Virus record (IMG/VR): IMGVR_UViG_3300009026_000007 | Span: 1-64,000 of that record | Source of the DNA: a virus | Length of the DNA stretch: 64,000 bases | Direction: 5' to 3' (one strand) | In this document: one piece after another, positions 1,311 through 48,293 of the stretch | Layout of the letters: each line of letters starts with the position of its first letter | Numbering within the stretch: position 1 is the stretch's first letter | The notes under the pieces: generated by a model | Seen by the model: the letters and a program-made list of their open reading frames with translations, nothing else | The model's database searches: none | What the model was told of the DNA's origin: nothing | Position numbers and translations under genes: made by a program

Positions 1311-1724
1311 ATGAAAGACATTAAATTTTATATTAACCCTGAAAATAGTGGATTTTACCAAACAGATATAAATACTTCTATCCCTGATAAAGCCATAGAA
1401 ATTTCAGTAGAGGAAAGACATGAAATACTAAACTGCATTCTTTCTGGCGGTGTTGTCACATTCAATAAAGATAAGTACCAATTAAGTTTTATTGAACAAA
1501 AAGAAATTGACAAGAAATCTGCAATTTATGCTGAAAGGTGCTGGAGAGATTCTGAACTTTCTAAAGCGGATGTACAGATTTTTAAACTAGAAGACTCGCC
1601 TAAAGACTGTAATAAGGAAATCTCTGTGTGGAGAGGCTATAGAACACTTTTAAGGGATTACCCCTCCACAACAAGATTTCCTTATGGGAAACGTCCTTCA
1701 CTTAATAAGGATCTGTTAAAATGA
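1311..1724 (+). CDS. Tail fibre assembly chaperone (Caudo_TAP/TfaE-like)
   Basis: 137 residues. The C-terminal half has the family signature CWRDSELSKADVQIFKLED, then a Trp-Arg-x-Tyr-Arg segment and a short Pro-rich end with FPYGKRPS, as in Caudo_TAP proteins, which help fibre C-termini trimerise and fold. The ATG at 1311 lies two bases after the fibre stop; a longer reading would overlap the fibre gene and was rejected. The stop overlaps the next start as ATGA, implying coupled translation with the tailspike. It probably acts on the fibre just upstream. It is too short for a virion component and shows no signal peptide. Confidence 0.8.
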   Translation: MKDIKFYINPENSGFYQTDINTSIPDKAIEISVEERHEILNCILSGGVVTFNKDKYQLSFIEQKEIDKKSAIYAERCWRDSELSKADVQIFKLEDSPKDCNKEISVWRGYRTLLRDYPSTTRFPYGKRPSLNKDLLK

Positions 1725-3898
1725 CTCAGCAAACTTCTCCTTTTGTTGAAGTAAACTATGGGTGGGCCTATGGGGAGTCTGGGTGGAATGGTGGTATGGA
1801 TGAAAACTTACTTCAATTTTCCTACCTATTCGATAGAAATGTTGATGGTGTCGTCAGCTCTTTACCTCCAGCAATTTCAGGATCTTCATATTATCTAACT
1901 GCCGATAATAGGTTTTATTTTGCAGTTGGTACAACATATTATTCTTCTCCAGTACCAAAGTGGTTTACTTTCTACATTAAAAGTAATGGTAATCCTTATC
2001 AATTTAATGGTACAACGGCTGTTCTTGTTAACTCTGAATCTCAACTAAACACTCGTCTAACTGCTGTAGAACTTACTTTATCTACATTAGGAACAGCGGC
2101 CTTTAGACCTGAGACATATTTTGCAACCCAATCTGCGCTAGATGTGGCAAGTTCTCAAAGTGCTTCTTACACAGACAGCTTAAGATCTGACCTATCCTCC
2201 AGTACAGGGTCAAGTAGGGTAGGTTTTAAACTCTCATCTTTACTCTCTAGTCTTAGGACTGTACAAGATAAGTTAGCTGAGAGCGTTTCAGTAAAAGATT
2301 TTGGTGCTGTTGGGGATGGTGTTGCGGATGACACAGCAGCCATTCAAGCAGCACTGGACGCAAGTAACAGTGTGTATGTTCCTCCTGGCGTCTATCTTTT
2401 GTCTGCTACTTTACACTCACGCCCCAGAACAGAATTTTATGGGAGTGTTGCAGAGATTACCCAACTTAAAAGAAATGGCGCTGACTACGGCCATACTTTG
2501 GAGTTGGGCACAGAGTCAAGTAACCCGGCAAACAACGCCAATCTCTGTCACGTACACGGACTTTGGTTTCAAAGGAACTTCTCCTACACCCCAGGTGTCA
2601 CAACCACAATACCAGACCCTTTGTCAGCAGGAACCTCACATATTAAGTTAAATGGTGGTCAAAAAGCCATTATTGAAGATAATATGTTGTGGAACGCGCC
2701 TATTCTTATTGACGTAGTTACTAGCTCTTTGGTAACTATTAGAAATAATGGTCTACTCTCAATGATCTGGGACAATAGGGTTTCGGGGTTAAGGGAGGGT
2801 TTTGCTGCGATACAAATACGTAATAGCAGTTTAATGGCGGGGGCAACTCAACTTGTTAACGTCTATGGAAACCATATTAATGGTGGGTACTTTTCTGCAT
2901 CCCGTGCAGTAACCACAGGAAGTGTCAGTACACCAATGGTCGAGTGTATCGGCGCCTTGTATGGGTTAAACGTAGAGGCTTGTGAAGGGTTAAGTGTTTA
3001 TGATAACTACTTAGGTGCATTTAACCAAAACAATATGTATATTAATGCCATTGGCTTAGTAACTAATGTTAGGTTTTGGGGTAATTTTGTTGATGGTTCA
3101 CGAGATTATGCTATTGTAACAAACTGTACAAACGGTAATCCAACAGTAGGGTTGCAAATTTTTGGTAATGATTTTAACTTGCAGCTTATCAACATGGGAG
3201 CTATATACGCACTTGGTGCTGGTTGGACCACAGTTGTAAAACTTATCATAGCTGATAACAACATAGAAAACTCAATACAGACACCTATTCTTCTGTTCAG
3301 TGTTTCTGGTGCAAGCATCAATTCTAATATGATCAGTGCCTACAACGTAAGAAGGGGTGGTGATGCAAATAGTTTATATGCTGCCGGTATTCTTGTTGGA
3401 GGTACATCAGACAGGGTTTTTGCAAGTGGTAATAGCTATGGTGGGAATGTTAATACCTTAGATGCAACAGGTAATGGCTGCACTTGGGGTATTTACTTCG
3501 ATAACAATACTGCTGGTTATGCTTTAAACGAGTACGACTTAGGCAGGTCATTGGCTGGGAGTTTCCCCCTTGTTGTGGGGGGCACGGCTATTCCTTTGTC
3601 TCCCGTTCAGGCTACTCATGTTGCATCAACTGGTAACTTTCAACTTCTACCAAGCCATCTTGTCTATATTCGGACAGGGATGGCTACTGGCGCAACTGTG
3701 GCGGCACTTCCTGCAAATCCGATTATTGGACAAGAACATGTGATCAAAGATCAGAGTAACGCAAGTTCATTTCCTATTGTTATAAACCCAACAGGGTCTG
3801 GTATTACAATTGACGGCGCAAGTAATTTGAATATTACCACTACTTATGGATTTGTAAGACTTAGGTTCAATGGCTCTATGTGGAACAGAATAGGATAA
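1721..3898 (+). CDS. Tailspike with right-handed beta-helix (pectate-lyase-like)
   Basis: 725 residues. The N-terminal ~110 residues (YGWAYGESGWNGGMDENLL) look like a virion-attachment domain. A Ser/Thr-rich linker then leads to SVKDFGAVGDGVADDTAAIQ near residue 192, the classic entry of Pectate_lyase_3 beta-helix proteins. Asn/Gly-rich repeats with many VYxNxI-type turns continue to about residue 610. The C-terminus is beta-rich and may be a trimerisation domain. Proteins of this class bind or cut surface polysaccharide. Together with the separate fibre, it gives the phage two candidate receptor-binding proteins. The exact glycan and catalytic residues cannot be read from sequence alone. Confidence 0.8.
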   Translation: MTQQTSPFVEVNYGWAYGESGWNGGMDENLLQFSYLFDRNVDGVVSSLPPAISGSSYYLTADNRFYFAVGTTYYSSPVPKWFTFYIKSNGNPYQFNGTTAVLVNSESQLNTRLTAVELTLSTLGTAAFRPETYFATQSALDVASSQSASYTDSLRSDLSSSTGSSRVGFKLSSLLSSLRTVQDKLAESVSVKDFGAVGDGVADDTAAIQAALDASNSVYVPPGVYLLSATLHSRPRTEFYGSVAEITQLKRNGADYGHTLELGTESSNPANNANLCHVHGLWFQRNFSYTPGVTTTIPDPLSAGTSHIKLNGGQKAIIEDNMLWNAPILIDVVTSSLVTIRNNGLLSMIWDNRVSGLREGFAAIQIRNSSLMAGATQLVNVYGNHINGGYFSASRAVTTGSVSTPMVECIGALYGLNVEACEGLSVYDNYLGAFNQNNMYINAIGLVTNVRFWGNFVDGSRDYAIVTNCTNGNPTVGLQIFGNDFNLQLINMGAIYALGAGWTTVVKLIIADNNIENSIQTPILLFSVSGASINSNMISAYNVRRGGDANSLYAAGILVGGTSDRVFASGNSYGGNVNTLDATGNGCTWGIYFDNNTAGYALNEYDLGRSLAGSFPLVVGGTAIPLSPVQATHVASTGNFQLLPSHLVYIRTGMATGATVAALPANPIIGQEHVIKDQSNASSFPIVINPTGSGITIDGASNLNITTTYGFVRLRFNGSMWNRIG

Positions 3899-3900
3899 TC

Positions 3901-4014
3901 ATGACAAACTATTCAGAAGCTGCAAAGCTCTTGGGTGTAGAGGAGGCAGCCGTAAAGGCTGTCGCTTCTGTCGAGAGTCAAGGATTCATATTTTTCTTGG
4001 ATATTTTGATGTAA
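3901..4014 (+). pseudogene. Remnant of an N-acetylmuramidase endolysin (N-terminus only)
   Basis: A 37-codon reading frame starts 3 bp after the tailspike stop. Its YSEAAKLLGVEEAAVKAVAS, followed by VESQG, matches the start of N-acetylmuramidase (DUF3380) endolysins, in which this helix ends in VESxGxGFL and continues with DGRPxILFERH. Here the match stops after VESQG; seven unrelated codons and a stop follow. An HNH endonuclease gene and then a different lysozyme (GH24 type) come next. I infer that the original endolysin was cut off and replaced. It might still be translated as a short peptide. Confidence 0.6.
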
Positions 4015-4025
4015 CATGCTATTAT
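3997..4025 (+). promoter_or_regulatory. Sigma70-like promoter before the HNH gene
   Basis: TTGGAT and TATTAT with a 17-bp spacer lie inside the broken endolysin remnant, 29 bp before the HNH start. This would give the endonuclease its own transcript, independent of the late operon. Confidence 0.5.
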
Positions 4026-4028
4026 TAT

Positions 4029-4053
4029 ACCTCAAATTAATTGTGAGGTTTTT
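4029..4053 (+). terminator. Hairpin with T-run that covers the HNH ribosome-binding site
   Basis: ACCTCA (4029-4034) pairs with TGAGGT (4044-4049), followed by five T residues. The 3' arm holds the GAGG Shine-Dalgarno sequence of the HNH gene at 4054. It may act as an attenuator or terminator, or it may hide the ribosome-binding site in long transcripts. Confidence 0.5.
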
Positions 4054-4617
4054 ATGTGTAAGGTCAGTGAGTGTTTAAAAATAGACGGAAACAAAGAGAA
4101 ACTTGTTAAACGGATTTCTCAGCGCACTAAAATTAATCCCGAAACTAGGTGTATTGAGTGGACAGCAAGGTCAAGAACATCTTTTGGCTACGGGCAAATT
4201 GGGTTGAAAGATTTTACGGGTCTACGTGTTCACAGGGTTGTTTGGACTATAGCTAACGGGGAAATACCCGAAAACCTGTTGATTATGCACTCTTGTGATA
4301 ACCCACTTTGTTGTAATTTAGAACACCTTTCTCTAGGCACTCATAAAGATAATACTGCCGATATGTGGACTAAAGGGCGTCAATCAGAGCCACCAATTCA
4401 CAAAGGTTTAGAGGAATATAGAGAACGAAACCCCGGAAAATTTCGTGGTGAAGAAAATGCTACATCTAAACTAAAAGAATTTCAGGTTTTAGAAATTCTT
4501 ACTTCCCCAAAAAGCCCGAAGTATTTTTGTGAAAAATTCAATATTTCTAAGCATACTATTTCTTTAATCAGAAAACGAAAAATATGGAAACATGTTGAGG
4601 TTCCTAGTGAATATTAG
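4054..4617 (+). CDS. HNH homing endonuclease with C-terminal DNA-binding helix-turn-helix
   Basis: 187 residues. The HNH_3-type core is around residues 60-105: HRVVWTIANGEIPENLLIMH, then CDNPLCCNLEHLSLGT and DNTADMW. A C-terminal segment (RGEENATSKL, then SKHTISLIRKRKIWKHV) is a typical resolvase-like DNA-recognition helix of phage homing endonucleases. The gene sits exactly between a truncated muramidase remnant and an intact lysozyme, and overlaps the lysozyme start by 11 bp. It has its own promoter and a hairpin over its ribosome-binding site. It probably spreads by cutting endolysin genes of competing phages; the target is inferred. Confidence 0.88.
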   Translation: MCKVSECLKIDGNKEKLVKRISQRTKINPETRCIEWTARSRTSFGYGQIGLKDFTGLRVHRVVWTIANGEIPENLLIMHSCDNPLCCNLEHLSLGTHKDNTADMWTKGRQSEPPIHKGLEEYRERNPGKFRGEENATSKLKEFQVLEILTSPKSPKYFCEKFNISKHTISLIRKRKIWKHVEVPSEY

Positions 4618-5035
4618 TCAAAAAGGCATTAGCCTAATTAAAAGTTTTGAAGGCTTGTCTCTTAAAGCTTATAAAGACTCTGTTGGTGTTGTGACAATTG
4701 GCTATGGTTCCACTGGTCCTCATGTTTCAATGGGACAAACCATCACTGAGACTCAAGCAGAGTCTTTGCTTAAGAGCGACATTTCAAGGTTTGAGAAAGG
4801 GGTAAGTGACCTAGTTACTGCCCCTTTAAATCAAAATCAGTTCGATGCTCTTGTTAGTTTTAGTTTCAATCTTGGACTTGGTAATCTTAAGTCCTCAACA
4901 CTACTTAGAAAGCTTAATTCCCTAGACTATGCAGGGACATCTAAAGAGTTTGAACGTTGGAACAAAGCTGGTGGTAAAGTTTTGGCTGGACTAACCTGTA
5001 GACGAATTGCAGAGAGGGATTTGTTTCTCTCCTAG
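4607..5035 (+). CDS. Endolysin, T4-lysozyme-type GH24 muramidase
   Basis: 142 residues from the GTG at 4607, chosen because TGAGG lies six bases upstream; an ATG 15 bases earlier lacks a site. The sequence GISLIKSFEGLSLKAYKDSV, then GVVTIGYG, shows the GH24 catalytic Glu, Asp and Thr in the right spacing, and NQFDALVSFSFNLG and RRIAERDLF are conserved later. It cleaves the beta-1,4 bond of peptidoglycan during lysis. No signal peptide or SAR anchor is visible, so release depends on the holin directly downstream. It seems to replace the DUF3380 enzyme whose remnant lies upstream. Confidence 0.92.
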   Translation: MNISQKGISLIKSFEGLSLKAYKDSVGVVTIGYGSTGPHVSMGQTITETQAESLLKSDISRFEKGVSDLVTAPLNQNQFDALVSFSFNLGLGNLKSSTLLRKLNSLDYAGTSKEFERWNKAGGKVLAGLTCRRIAERDLFLS

Positions 5036-5047
5036 GCAGATATAACA

Positions 5048-5389
5048 ATGACAGATGTAAAAGTTGAAGACCTTGTAACACCCATCACAAAAGATACAGC
5101 TGTTGAAGCAACAATCACTTCTACTCTGTCATCTACTCCTACTAAACTAACCCTCGTACCCAATTGGAAAAAAGTTCTCAAAACTTATTCCTTTTGGACC
5201 ACTGTATTGTCTGCTCTGTTGTCATTGGTTGAAATCATTCTTCCATTCTTCTCCCTTCTTGAGCCTACAATGTCTGTGGCTGCGTACGGCGTATCCATGT
5301 TCGTGCTCAACGTATCTGCTGCTGTCTTCAGGATGATCAAGCAACATAAGCTTTGGCAACCAGAAGAGGATAAGGACAATGTTCAGTAA
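5048..5389 (+). CDS. Holin
   Basis: 113 residues. A polar N-terminus of about 45 residues is followed by two hydrophobic segments (SFWTTVLSALLSLVEIILPF, and MSVAAYGVSMFVLNVSAAVF) and a charged tail ending PEEDKDNVQ. This is the pattern of a family of phage holins found beside lysozyme and spanin genes. It would form holes in the inner membrane that let the lysozyme reach peptidoglycan. It lies between the endolysin and the i-spanin, overlapping the latter by 11 bp. The N-terminal Thr/Val-rich part is unusually long but harmless to the call. Confidence 0.8.
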   Translation: MTDVKVEDLVTPITKDTAVEATITSTLSSTPTKLTLVPNWKKVLKTYSFWTTVLSALLSLVEIILPFFSLLEPTMSVAAYGVSMFVLNVSAAVFRMIKQHKLWQPEEDKDNVQ

Positions 5390-5822
5390 TATCTTCTCTG
5401 GTGCCACTCTGTACATCATCCTAGCTCTTCTGGCTTCAACAGCAGGGTTTGGCTACCTTTCGTATAAGCTGAGCAATGATAAGGCCGTAGCAGTAGCTCA
5501 GCTTAAGACTGCCAATGAAACGGCTGAAGGATATAAAAACTCCCTTAACTTAAAGGATTCTTCTTGTAAGATTGATGACACCTCAGTAGTTGAAGTTGAA
5601 ACAGACAAGAAAGACCTTCAAACTAAAGTTGATGCTGTATCTGATAAATTTGATAAGCTAAAAGTTATTACGGCTACTAAGCCTTCAGTCAAACAAGAGA
5701 TAATTAACCATGAAACTAATGTCTTGCCTGATGATGGGATTCTTAGTCCTAACATTACAAGCTTGCTCAAACTTGGGTGGTGTGACTCCTTCCCCACAGA
5801 TGACGTATGTCGGACCAAGTGA
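5379..5822 (+). CDS. Inner-membrane spanin (Rz-like)
   Basis: 147 residues. One N-terminal transmembrane helix (ATLYIILALLASTAGFGYLS) is followed by a periplasmic, charged, coiled-coil-prone region (about 30-110), the topology of i-spanins. It would pair with the outer-membrane lipoprotein encoded in another frame inside its 3' end, and fuse the two membranes in the last step of lysis. The start overlaps the holin end. The nested o-spanin gene is the strongest evidence for the assignment. Confidence 0.8.
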   Translation: MFSNIFSGATLYIILALLASTAGFGYLSYKLSNDKAVAVAQLKTANETAEGYKNSLNLKDSSCKIDDTSVVEVETDKKDLQTKVDAVSDKFDKLKVITATKPSVKQEIINHETNVLPDDGILSPNITSLLKLGWCDSFPTDDVCRTK

Positions 5823-5994
5823 CGCATTGTTGATGCGACCATGTAAGGCAACCCCTGCTGGTGAGAGTCTTATTGATCTAGCTAAAGCTCAGAACAAAAA
5901 TGTGTCTTGCATCAGTATGTATCAGAAACAGTTAGACGCAATCAAAAAGAATAGAGACAAGCAAAAGGAATTGTATAATGTCAAACCCAAGTGA
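5710..5994 (+). CDS. Outer-membrane spanin lipoprotein (Rz1-like)
   Basis: 94 residues, beginning inside the Rz-like gene in the +1 frame and sharing 113 bp with it. The signal peptide is MKLMSCLMMGFLVLTLQAC, with the lipobox LQAC giving an acylated Cys near residue 19. A Pro-containing linker (TPSPQMTYVGPS) and a Lys-rich end follow. Overlapping Rz/Rz1 genes are typical of Gram-negative phages. The tail after residue 60 is longer and more charged than in classic Rz1. Confidence 0.82.
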   Translation: MKLMSCLMMGFLVLTLQACSNLGGVTPSPQMTYVGPSDALLMRPCKATPAGESLIDLAKAQNKNVSCISMYQKQLDAIKKNRDKQKELYNVKPK

Positions 5995-8542: not shown

Positions 8543-9247
8543 TTATGTTGTCAAGCGAGCTTCGTAGAAATCTACAAAATCTTTCCAAATGCCTCCAGAC
8601 CTCAGCCTGGAAATACAGCTAGGTTCCATTTGGAGGGTGTCCGCAATCTTTTTATTTATAAGTCCTGCCTTGATCATTTCCCAAGCTTCTACTATTTTAA
8701 CAATAGAATACGCACCAACAGTAAACGACTTAGGAAAAACTTTACCTTCTCTCTTGTAAACGTGTTCCCATTTCTTGCCGTGACGAACTAGTGATATGTA
8801 ACGGGGGTGAAGATTAAACTTTTCACCTATGTAGTCGTTATTGTACCCCAGTTCAAACAGCTGGTACATCTCTAAAAGCTCTGCCTCAGTGATTTTACTG
8901 CCATGATTATCTTCTCCTCGCCTTCCTTTTGACAACCCCATATCATAGGCATGTTGGGTGTTATAACTCACGGTTACGACTTCAAGATTTGAAAGTATAT
9001 TATTTAATTTATTCCCGTCTTTATGGTTAACAACCAAATTCTCTGGTATAACTCCGAAGAACGCCTCCATCATTGCCCGATGCACACCTCTAGCCCTTGT
9101 TGTAACTCTTTTAGCAACGACCAGATAACCATGGGCATTAACAAAACACTTAATGAGTTTACCAGTTTTAGGGTTCTTTACACGCCCAATATTACTAATA
9201 AGGTAGTGAGTTAGTGGGTGCTTCTTCCAAATTTCAACATCTTCCAT
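8543..9247 (-). CDS. HNH homing endonuclease (NUMOD4-HNH type)
   Basis: 234 residues from the ATG at 9247 (GGAGA upstream). The N-terminus (VEIWKKHPLTHYLISNIGRV) is a NUMOD4 motif. The HNH core follows around 45-95 with GVHRAMMEAFFG, NHKDGNKLNN and NLEVVT. Two C-terminal helix-turn-helix-like repeats (HPRYISLVRHGKKWEHV and EPSCISRLRSGGIWKDF) should bind DNA. It lies between two terminators right after the ribonucleotide reductase gene, a common homing target; I infer that nrdA is its site. It is isolated transcriptionally from nrdA. Confidence 0.9.
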   Translation of the reverse strand: MEDVEIWKKHPLTHYLISNIGRVKNPKTGKLIKCFVNAHGYLVVAKRVTTRARGVHRAMMEAFFGVIPENLVVNHKDGNKLNNILSNLEVVTVSYNTQHAYDMGLSKGRRGEDNHGSKITEAELLEMYQLFELGYNNDYIGEKFNLHPRYISLVRHGKKWEHVYKREGKVFPKSFTVGAYSIVKIVEAWEMIKAGLINKKIADTLQMEPSCISRLRSGGIWKDFVDFYEARLTT

Positions 9248-9260
9248 AGTTTTCTCCAAA

Positions 9261-47329: not shown

Positions 47330-48055
47330 TCACATACTTTTTGTAACGTCAAATAACCTAAACTTTTCAATTACTCGGTACTCCATATTTTCATGGTACC
47401 TTTCAATTAGGACTTTGACACATTCAATTTTCCAATCTCGGTAGATGGTAAAAGCTTCTTCTGGCGTTTCACAAGCTTTCGCTCTAACCTTATCCGTCAA
47501 TTTGTAATTAATCCTAGGAATATATTTATTACAATGTTCGTATATTCCTAGAAAATTCATTCCACGTTGCTTTGTATTTACATTTAGAAAAGTGTTGATA
47601 TCTTTGTGGACAAAGCAACAAGTACTGGGCGAATAAGATTTAATATCTAATGAAAGAATGTCTTTGTCTAGGTGGTAATCTTTTTCTTTGAACCCTTTCT
47701 GCCACTGACACCATTCAGCAAATTCCTGAAAATTGTGCCATTGTTCATCTACTGAACATCCAATGTAGGTTGGGAATTTTCCCTGGTATGCTGCTGAATA
47801 ACACCTTTCCAGCATACCAGTCCACAGCCTATATTCTTTAGTATGTTTTTGATTATCGGATACTTTGTGTGGGCCTGCGCCTACAAAACCAACACCATAC
47901 ACAGATGGATTGAACAAATCCTTAACTGAACCTGTTTTTATATTACCGTTTGAGGCAATACATTCATAACCTGTCTCAATAAAACGAATATAAGACCTTT
48001 TACCCTTTTCTTTCGAAATTATTACAAATTCCTGACCTGCATTATTATAAGGCAT
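47330..48055 (-). CDS. Homing-endonuclease-like protein, copy 2 of the three-member family
   Basis: 241 residues from the ATG at 48055 (GGAGGTG upstream). The core EYRLWTGMLERCYSAAYQGK, then FQEFAEWCQWQKGFKEKDYH, LDKDIL, YSPSTCCFVHKDINTFLN, is shared with the copies at 12752 and 56596. The N-terminal ~65 residues form a beta-rich extra domain (GQEFVIISKEKGKRSYIRFI) resembling the NUMOD-like part of AP2/HNH mobile proteins. The C-terminus is an AP2-like region (NFLGIYEHCNKYIPRINYK). It is probably mobile. Confidence 0.66.
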   Translation of the reverse strand: MPYNNAGQEFVIISKEKGKRSYIRFIETGYECIASNGNIKTGSVKDLFNPSVYGVGFVGAGPHKVSDNQKHTKEYRLWTGMLERCYSAAYQGKFPTYIGCSVDEQWHNFQEFAEWCQWQKGFKEKDYHLDKDILSLDIKSYSPSTCCFVHKDINTFLNVNTKQRGMNFLGIYEHCNKYIPRINYKLTDKVRAKACETPEEAFTIYRDWKIECVKVLIERYHENMEYRVIEKFRLFDVTKSM

Positions 48056-48293
48056 ATGGTGTACACCTCCGACATCCACACGATAAACCCATAGGCTTCA
48101 TACGGTCTTCTGGAGATAGATTCTCCATGCTCTCCCACAGACACTTAGTTTCACGAGTAATATCATACTTAGGTTGTTCTTGACTCAACCACCCAAATCT
48201 TTTATACCGTGCAATACTTTCTTCCGTCTCTTTGCGAAGTTGTTTTAGTTCATCTTCTACGTTCTGCATACGATCTTCTAGTGTAATGTTCAT
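48045..48293 (-). CDS. Coiled-coil protein related to the 48778 gene (82 aa)
   Basis: Starts MNITLEDRMQNVEDELKQLR, matching MKQSIEDRMSNVDKELKKLR of the protein at 48778-48936; the two flank the nuclease gene. The C-terminus is Cys-containing (LSCGCRRC). Function unknown. Confidence 0.6.
   Translation of the reverse strand: MNITLEDRMQNVEDELKQLRKETEESIARYKRFGWLSQEQPKYDITRETKCLWESMENLSPEDRMKPMGLSCGCRRCTPYAL

Follow-up and report, generated by a model that had tools for sequence, protein, structure and literature searches.

The genes between the tailspike and holin of this virus probably record a finished exchange of one essential lysis gene for a non-homologous one, in which an HNH homing endonuclease cut a rival endolysin gene and brought in a substitute. 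The window (the whole stretch of DNA analysed, 64 kb of an 88.5-kb virus record) encodes a DNA polymerase that is closest, at ~58% identity, to those of Pseudomonas phages of the KIL/phiPsa/M5.1 type. The muramidase of the window's relatives has a 53-54% identical counterpart in several Pseudomonas phages of similar size. Between a tailspike-like gene on the left (1721-3898, +; Pect-lyase_RHGA_epim, 8e-16) and a holin gene on the right (5048-5389, +; phrog_1356, 9e-12), three open reading frames were found in the order 37-codon frame (3901-4014), HNH ORF (4054-4617) and GH24 ORF (4592-5035). The holin is 92-95% identical at the amino acid level to those of L003-L005, so that the right flank is common to the window and to relatives that carry a muramidase. 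It is followed by two overlapping Rz/Rz1-like spanin genes (5379-5822 and 5710-5994, both +; phrog_4349, 3e-11, and phrog_456, 4e-5).

The remnant, the HNH gene and the lysozyme gene

An initial annotation had read the 37-codon frame as the start of a DUF3380 N-acetylmuramidase that then breaks off. Two PHROG muramidase endolysin families were matched: residues 3-32 of the peptide aligned with phrog_1224 (E = 3e-6), and a second match, to phrog_2860 (E = 1e-4), covered profile positions 7-36 of 189. Both matches lie where the catalytic domain begins. Both families are filed in PHROGs under 'head and packaging' and not under lysis. The suggested check against PF11860 gave no Pfam match, because the Pfam model begins at about residue 15 of the full protein and no more than ~14 positions could overlap. 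At the DNA level, positions 3901-3985 (+) are identical at 83 of 85 nt to the 5' end of the intact muramidase gene found at the same site in L004, whose product counts as a full member of PF11860 (E = 9e-58); over the first 78 nt there is no difference (78/78) from the intact gene at the same site in L005. This DNA identity settles the matter, and the reading was borne out: as judged from sequence, the peptide is the product of the first 28 codons of a predicted DUF3380/PF11860-type N-acetylmuramidase endolysin gene. Muramidase homology ends at ~3985, after codon 28 (VESQG), and codons 29-37 of the frame are leader sequence of the HNH gene. In the DUF3380 endolysin AP3gp15, Glu101 is catalytic, and the E101A substitution lowered activity by 99.4% (PMC5674055). 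The glutamate of the VES motif in the stub corresponds to Glu101, hence the break falls three codons past the catalytic residue. No remaining muramidase sequence was found in the whole 88.5-kb record.

The remnant is followed directly by an HNH gene and an unrelated GH24 lysozyme gene, as had been proposed. The HNH ORF (4054-4617, +) matched HNH_3 (PF13392, 1.1e-14) and phrog_59 (2e-32), and codes for a putative I-HmuI-like endonuclease in which the H-N-H residues H79, N88 and H91, invariant in 53 proteins, are conserved. The AlphaFold model (pLDDT 88) has predicted C-terminal helices, and its top match among solved structures was I-HmuI, a weak one (probability 0.96, E = 0.017, TM 0.32); comparison with the PDB by sequence gave chance matches alone. 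The gene stands free, since Rfam and whole-record searches detected no surrounding intron or intein. Related alleles that lack the HNH gene exist, and the cassette that carries it is ~99% identical, sharply bounded and recently shared by horizontal transfer, as is expected of a homing-type endonuclease. Synonymous changes between the HNH genes were saturated (dS), and codon evolution was thus too saturated for a firm selection test. The leader of the gene (3986-4053, +) contains a weak sigma-70-like promoter at ~3998-4025, whose 9/12 match is no better than chance there, and a hairpin (CCTCA...TGAGG) that, as folded, covers the HNH ribosome-binding site. Two other HNH genes were seen in the window. 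One, at 8543-9259 (-), carries HNH_3 and NUMOD4, adjoins ribonucleotide reductase genes and is not close to the endolysin-site HNH; the other, a putative endonuclease gene at 47330-48079 (-), matched phrog_953 (1e-51) and had no Pfam match.

The last codons of the HNH gene overlap the start of the lysozyme gene. By comparison with L003 and L220, the lysozyme gene was placed at 4607-5035 (+), where a GTG at 4607, within the longer ORF from 4592, aligns with the ATG start of the L003 gene. It codes for a complete replacement endolysin: the GH24 match is full length (PF00959, positions 1-125 of 125, 1.6e-50), and the catalytic triad of the family, spaced Glu-8-Asp-5-Thr (PMC5674055), can be read in the segment FEGLSLKAYKDSVGVVTIG.

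Endolysin genes at the same site in relatives

Relatives were defined as viral-contig loci that share the holin, spanins or tailspike with the window. The initial annotation had suggested that some relatives may keep the complete muramidase at this site. At least 11 related contigs do, exactly here, between tail genes and a homologous holin gene, and with no 5' stub (L004, L005, L006, L009, L010, L142, L144, L145, L219, L231 and L232). A complete GH24 gene with no 5' stub was found in L011, L222, L229 and L230, and a complete SAR-type GH24 gene, also with no stub, in L367 and L376. In other relatives a stub was present and the HNH gene was not: a muramidase stub precedes a GH24 gene in L003 and L220 (23 codons) and in L012 (11 codons), the same 23-codon stub precedes a SAR lysozyme gene in L366, and a SAR-lysozyme stub precedes a GH24 gene in L227.

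The layout in which the first ~30 codons of an endolysin A are followed by an HNH gene and a complete endolysin B was seen in four A/B forms. The window and L092 carry a muramidase stub, the HNH gene and GH24. L007/L008 show the mirror image, with a GH24 stub of 32 codons, an HNH gene (44% amino acid identity) and a complete muramidase. In L223 a GH24 stub and an HNH gene precede a GH19 endolysin, and in L236 a SAR-lysozyme stub of 30 codons and an HNH gene precede another GH24 SAR lysozyme. For the L236 stub, an intact gene occurs in L367, and named phages yielded none. L007 and L223 share the break in the GH24 gene, which falls after codon 32 (TIG), immediately beyond the catalytic triad. 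Their HNHs are 67% identical, yet the downstream endolysins differ (muramidase and GH19, respectively). Where a record was searched whole, it never contained more than one complete endolysin of the families covered, and the truncated endolysin had no intact counterpart in it.

A stub lies directly upstream in 5/5 contigs with the HNH gene and in 5/22 without it (Fisher p = 0.003; p = 0.008 when the window and L092 are counted once). Furthermore, in all four layout types the HNH leader begins at the break or within ~15 nt of it, and the HNH gene runs up to endolysin B without a gap, its stop codon touching or overlapping the start of B; therefore, the HNH gene and B behave as one compact unit joined to the A stub. 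In L007 and L223 the leader carries a near-consensus promoter, TTGACA-17-TAAAAT (11/12), that begins exactly at the break. The HNHs of all five slot contigs fall on one side of a branch (SH-aLRT 83) in a tree of 52 sequences, which comprised these five and 47 others, the window's long-branch second HNH being left out. An HNH gene that adjoins endolysin B without an A stub, the presumed donor, was found in none of the loci compared. A scan of genome contigs returned distant HNH genes only, none of them within 2.5 kb of an endolysin recognised by the queries.

The window and L092 are ~85% identical over the 10.8 kb that align. In the 49.5 kb of L092's record that was sampled (L092, L384 and L385), stretches of 300 nt with at least 97% identity were confined to positions 3901-4700. 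High identity has its left limit exactly at the stub's ATG; just left of 3901 it collapses, and the tailspike ends are unrelated. On the other side it drops at ~4770, inside the lysozyme gene, which gives a high-identity block of ~0.87 kb with a single homing endonuclease gene (HEG). Right of ~4770, L092 has a lysozyme like that of the HNH-less L003 and L220 (90-97%) and another holin type, and the spanin region further right is again window-like; L092 is therefore a mosaic. The HNH gene may have entered an L220-like phage or may have moved in the reverse direction. In the relatives generally, the N-terminal part of the tailspike (1721-3898 in the window) is conserved and the C-terminal part differs in every one, with the border of exchange at the endolysin start codon.

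The 5' segment of the muramidase gene recombines on its own, as deduced from codons 3-28, where 21-22 of 26 third positions agree between L007 and L004/L005, versus 87 of 163 in the rest of the gene. The stubs of L003, L220 and L366 break five codons shorter than that of the window; the window stub therefore cannot derive from theirs without new muramidase DNA, and a window-like allele could yield theirs by deletion. Stubs that lack the HNH gene may thus be HNH losses or independent events. Eight relatives (L009, L011, L142, L144, L145, L229, L231 and L232) share a leader with the inverted repeat GCACAAGGAYGTGC, or close variants of it, ~40 nt before the endolysin start. This leader precedes both GH24 and muramidase genes, and the swaps across it are clean and leave no remnant; it is likely to be a boundary sequence for such swaps.

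Other oddities were noted at or near endolysin genes. L232 (3569-4978) has a complete muramidase followed by a 272-amino acid ORF without a Pfam match, nuclease-like by eye (Cys-rich). The end of this ORF is formed, in frame, by the final codons of a different muramidase (EAYEKFSKES), a 3' remnant that mirrors the 5' stubs. Behind the complete GH24 gene of L229 (4346-4878) lies another stub, the C-terminal 19 codons of a second GH24 gene, 89% identical to the C-terminus of the window's. In L230 an ORF between the GH24 and holin genes (4364-4900, opposite strand) has a weak Pfam match to the AP2 domain and probably codes for an HNH-AP2-type endonuclease. Pseudomonas phage vB_PsaM_M1 (L313, OP714164) has two adjacent 'lysozyme' genes, of which the first is DUF7338 and only the second is a GH24 SAR lysozyme.

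A proposed nuclease-linked replacement and its alternatives

Under the reading that we favour, an ancestral DUF3380 muramidase gene would have been broken after codon 28, and its 3' part replaced by a cassette of the HNH homing endonuclease gene and a complete GH24 lysozyme gene, the downstream holin being kept. The HNH enzyme would nick or cut the resident endolysin gene of a co-infecting relative, and the HNH phage would supply the template for repair. The left homology arm would be the upstream gene or the 5' end of the endolysin gene, and the right arm the holin gene or endolysin B. Repair would copy in the HNH gene together with a substitute endolysin that lacks the target, so that the recipient would remain able to lyse its host. 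What is left of endolysin A, its 5' stub, could serve as left homology arm in later transfers. Three points of this account are inferred: the activity of the HNH enzyme, the position of its cut site at the break, and cutting, as opposed to later insertion, as the link between enzyme and swap.

The initial annotation had described the replacement as driven, or at least accompanied, by the endonuclease. That the HNH gene accompanied the swap is strongly supported by the distribution of stubs. That it drove the swap is the likelier case yet is unproven, because remnants also occur without an HNH gene (the five stub-bearing loci listed above). These five loci and the clean leader-to-leader swaps indicate that the HNH gene is not the sole route, and it may sometimes merely accompany the exchange.

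These observations also count in favour of an undirected process. Illegitimate or short-homology recombination, which is common where tail and lysis genes meet in these phages, could truncate and swap endolysins, and the HNH gene could then insert, without a causal part, into a harmless stub-spacer. We consider this unlikely, though it is the most serious of the competing explanations. It accommodates the muramidase breaks at 11 or 23 codons in HNH-less loci, the clean exchange of GH24 and muramidase genes across the shared leader, and the position of the breaks outside conserved DNA; the idea that they fall in unusually conserved DNA was not supported (rank 67/135 in GH24 and 137/187 in muramidase). 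It does not readily explain why a stub stands beside every HNH gene at the slot, or why one HNH sublineage sits at an identical GH24 codon in front of two different endolysins. Moreover, a late HNH insertion would usually leave stub or linker DNA before endolysin B, whereas in all four types the two genes abut or overlap.

It is quite improbable that selection maintains the stub itself, either because it couples translation as a leader ORF or because it offers a short block of homology through which tailspike and lysis modules are exchanged, with the HNH gene doing no more than exploiting it. Stub lengths vary (11, 23 and 28 codons) and many relatives have no stub. The identity with L092 and with L004/L005, which begins at the stub ATG or the tailspike stop while the tailspikes differ, would fit such a role, but recent shared ancestry explains it too. 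The third-position island in codons 3-28, and the L012 stub, which ends as ATGA on the GH24 start, are also in line with selection on the stub.

HNH genes are frequent passengers of introns, and a short 5' exon can readily be overlooked (PMC10448857), hence a spliced muramidase gene interrupted by an HNH-bearing intron, as in the ICP1 tape measure and terminase genes, was considered. A group I intron was rejected and the explanation is very improbable: Rfam searches gave no group I intron match, no second exon was found for the muramidase in the 88.5-kb record or for GH24 in the L007 record, and the next gene is a complete, unrelated lysozyme. The compared records are metagenome-derived viral contigs, but a chimeric assembly can be dismissed, as L002 repeats the 10 kb at 99.99%, L092 has the same junction in another metagenome, and L007 and L008 repeat each other at the locus. 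A transposon was likewise rejected, the junctions having no terminal or direct repeats.

If the nuclease-linked reading is extended to all four forms, a phage HNH lineage might have specialised on the endolysin slot as a natural cleave-and-rescue system. Each member would destroy one endolysin type in co-infecting phages and spread with a non-homologous, uncuttable one, driving phages back and forth between muramidase, GH24, SAR-GH24 and GH19. We offer this wider proposal tentatively, as somewhat less likely than not to hold in full. It is probable that the cutting enzymes help phages to trade this essential lysis gene.

Comparison with known systems

The free-standing homing endonucleases SegF, SegG and MobE of T4, known alongside T2/T4 marker exclusion, convert flanking DNA (reviewed in PMC2988022). 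As with these enzymes, an intron-less nuclease gene here adjoins an essential gene, and cutting of the rival allele with co-conversion of the flank is predicted. Cutting has been shown for several of the T4 enzymes; here it is presumed. In T4 a homologue takes the place of the flanking gene, whereas here the replacement is an unrelated enzyme of like function and a 5' stub is left. In the HEG islands of ICP1-like and other phages, HEGs also mark the limits of recently exchanged DNA and adjoin essential genes (Barth et al. 2023, PMC10448857; endolysins and lysozymes are not mentioned there). Those islands exceed 10 kb and have HEGs on both sides; the present block, with ~0.87 kb and one HEG, is therefore not classed as one.

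That endolysin types are interchangeable, and that a nuclease cut in the endolysin gene can select natural swaps, is known from lactococcal phages, where a Cas9 cut in a P335 endolysin gene yielded survivors with a different, prophage endolysin in 12/16 cases (Oechslin et al. 2022, PMC9371310). In that system Cas9 was plasmid-borne, exchange relied on flank homology, and no homing endonuclease is mentioned. In PhiPA3, the HNH enzyme gp210 targets a gene that a co-infecting phage cannot do without (Birkholz et al. 2024, PMC11620839), as we presume for the endolysin-slot HNHs; unlike them, gp210 is intron-encoded and interfering, and no analogue replaces its target gene.

The literature accessible without subscription yielded no report in which a HEG is linked to the exchange of one endolysin for another that is not homologous, and none of reciprocal exchanges. 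Mosaicism of phage lysis cassettes is usually ascribed to undirected recombination. The recurrent and reciprocal layout of stub, HNH gene and substitute suggests that the process can be directed, with selfish nucleases exchanging an essential gene for an unrelated analogue. This reading predicts that each HNH enzyme cuts the endolysin gene of its adjoining stub and spares its travelling partner, and the stubs offer an easily recognised mark by which similar events could be sought in other phage genes. Engineered cleave-and-rescue or homing-rescue drives link a nuclease against an essential gene to an uncuttable substitute, a recoded copy of the same gene. The endolysin slot would be their natural counterpart: it likewise combines a nuclease, whose cleavage of an essential gene is presumed, with a substitute that escapes it, but the drives are synthetic and carry the same gene recoded, whereas here the system is natural and the substitute is a non-homologous enzyme.
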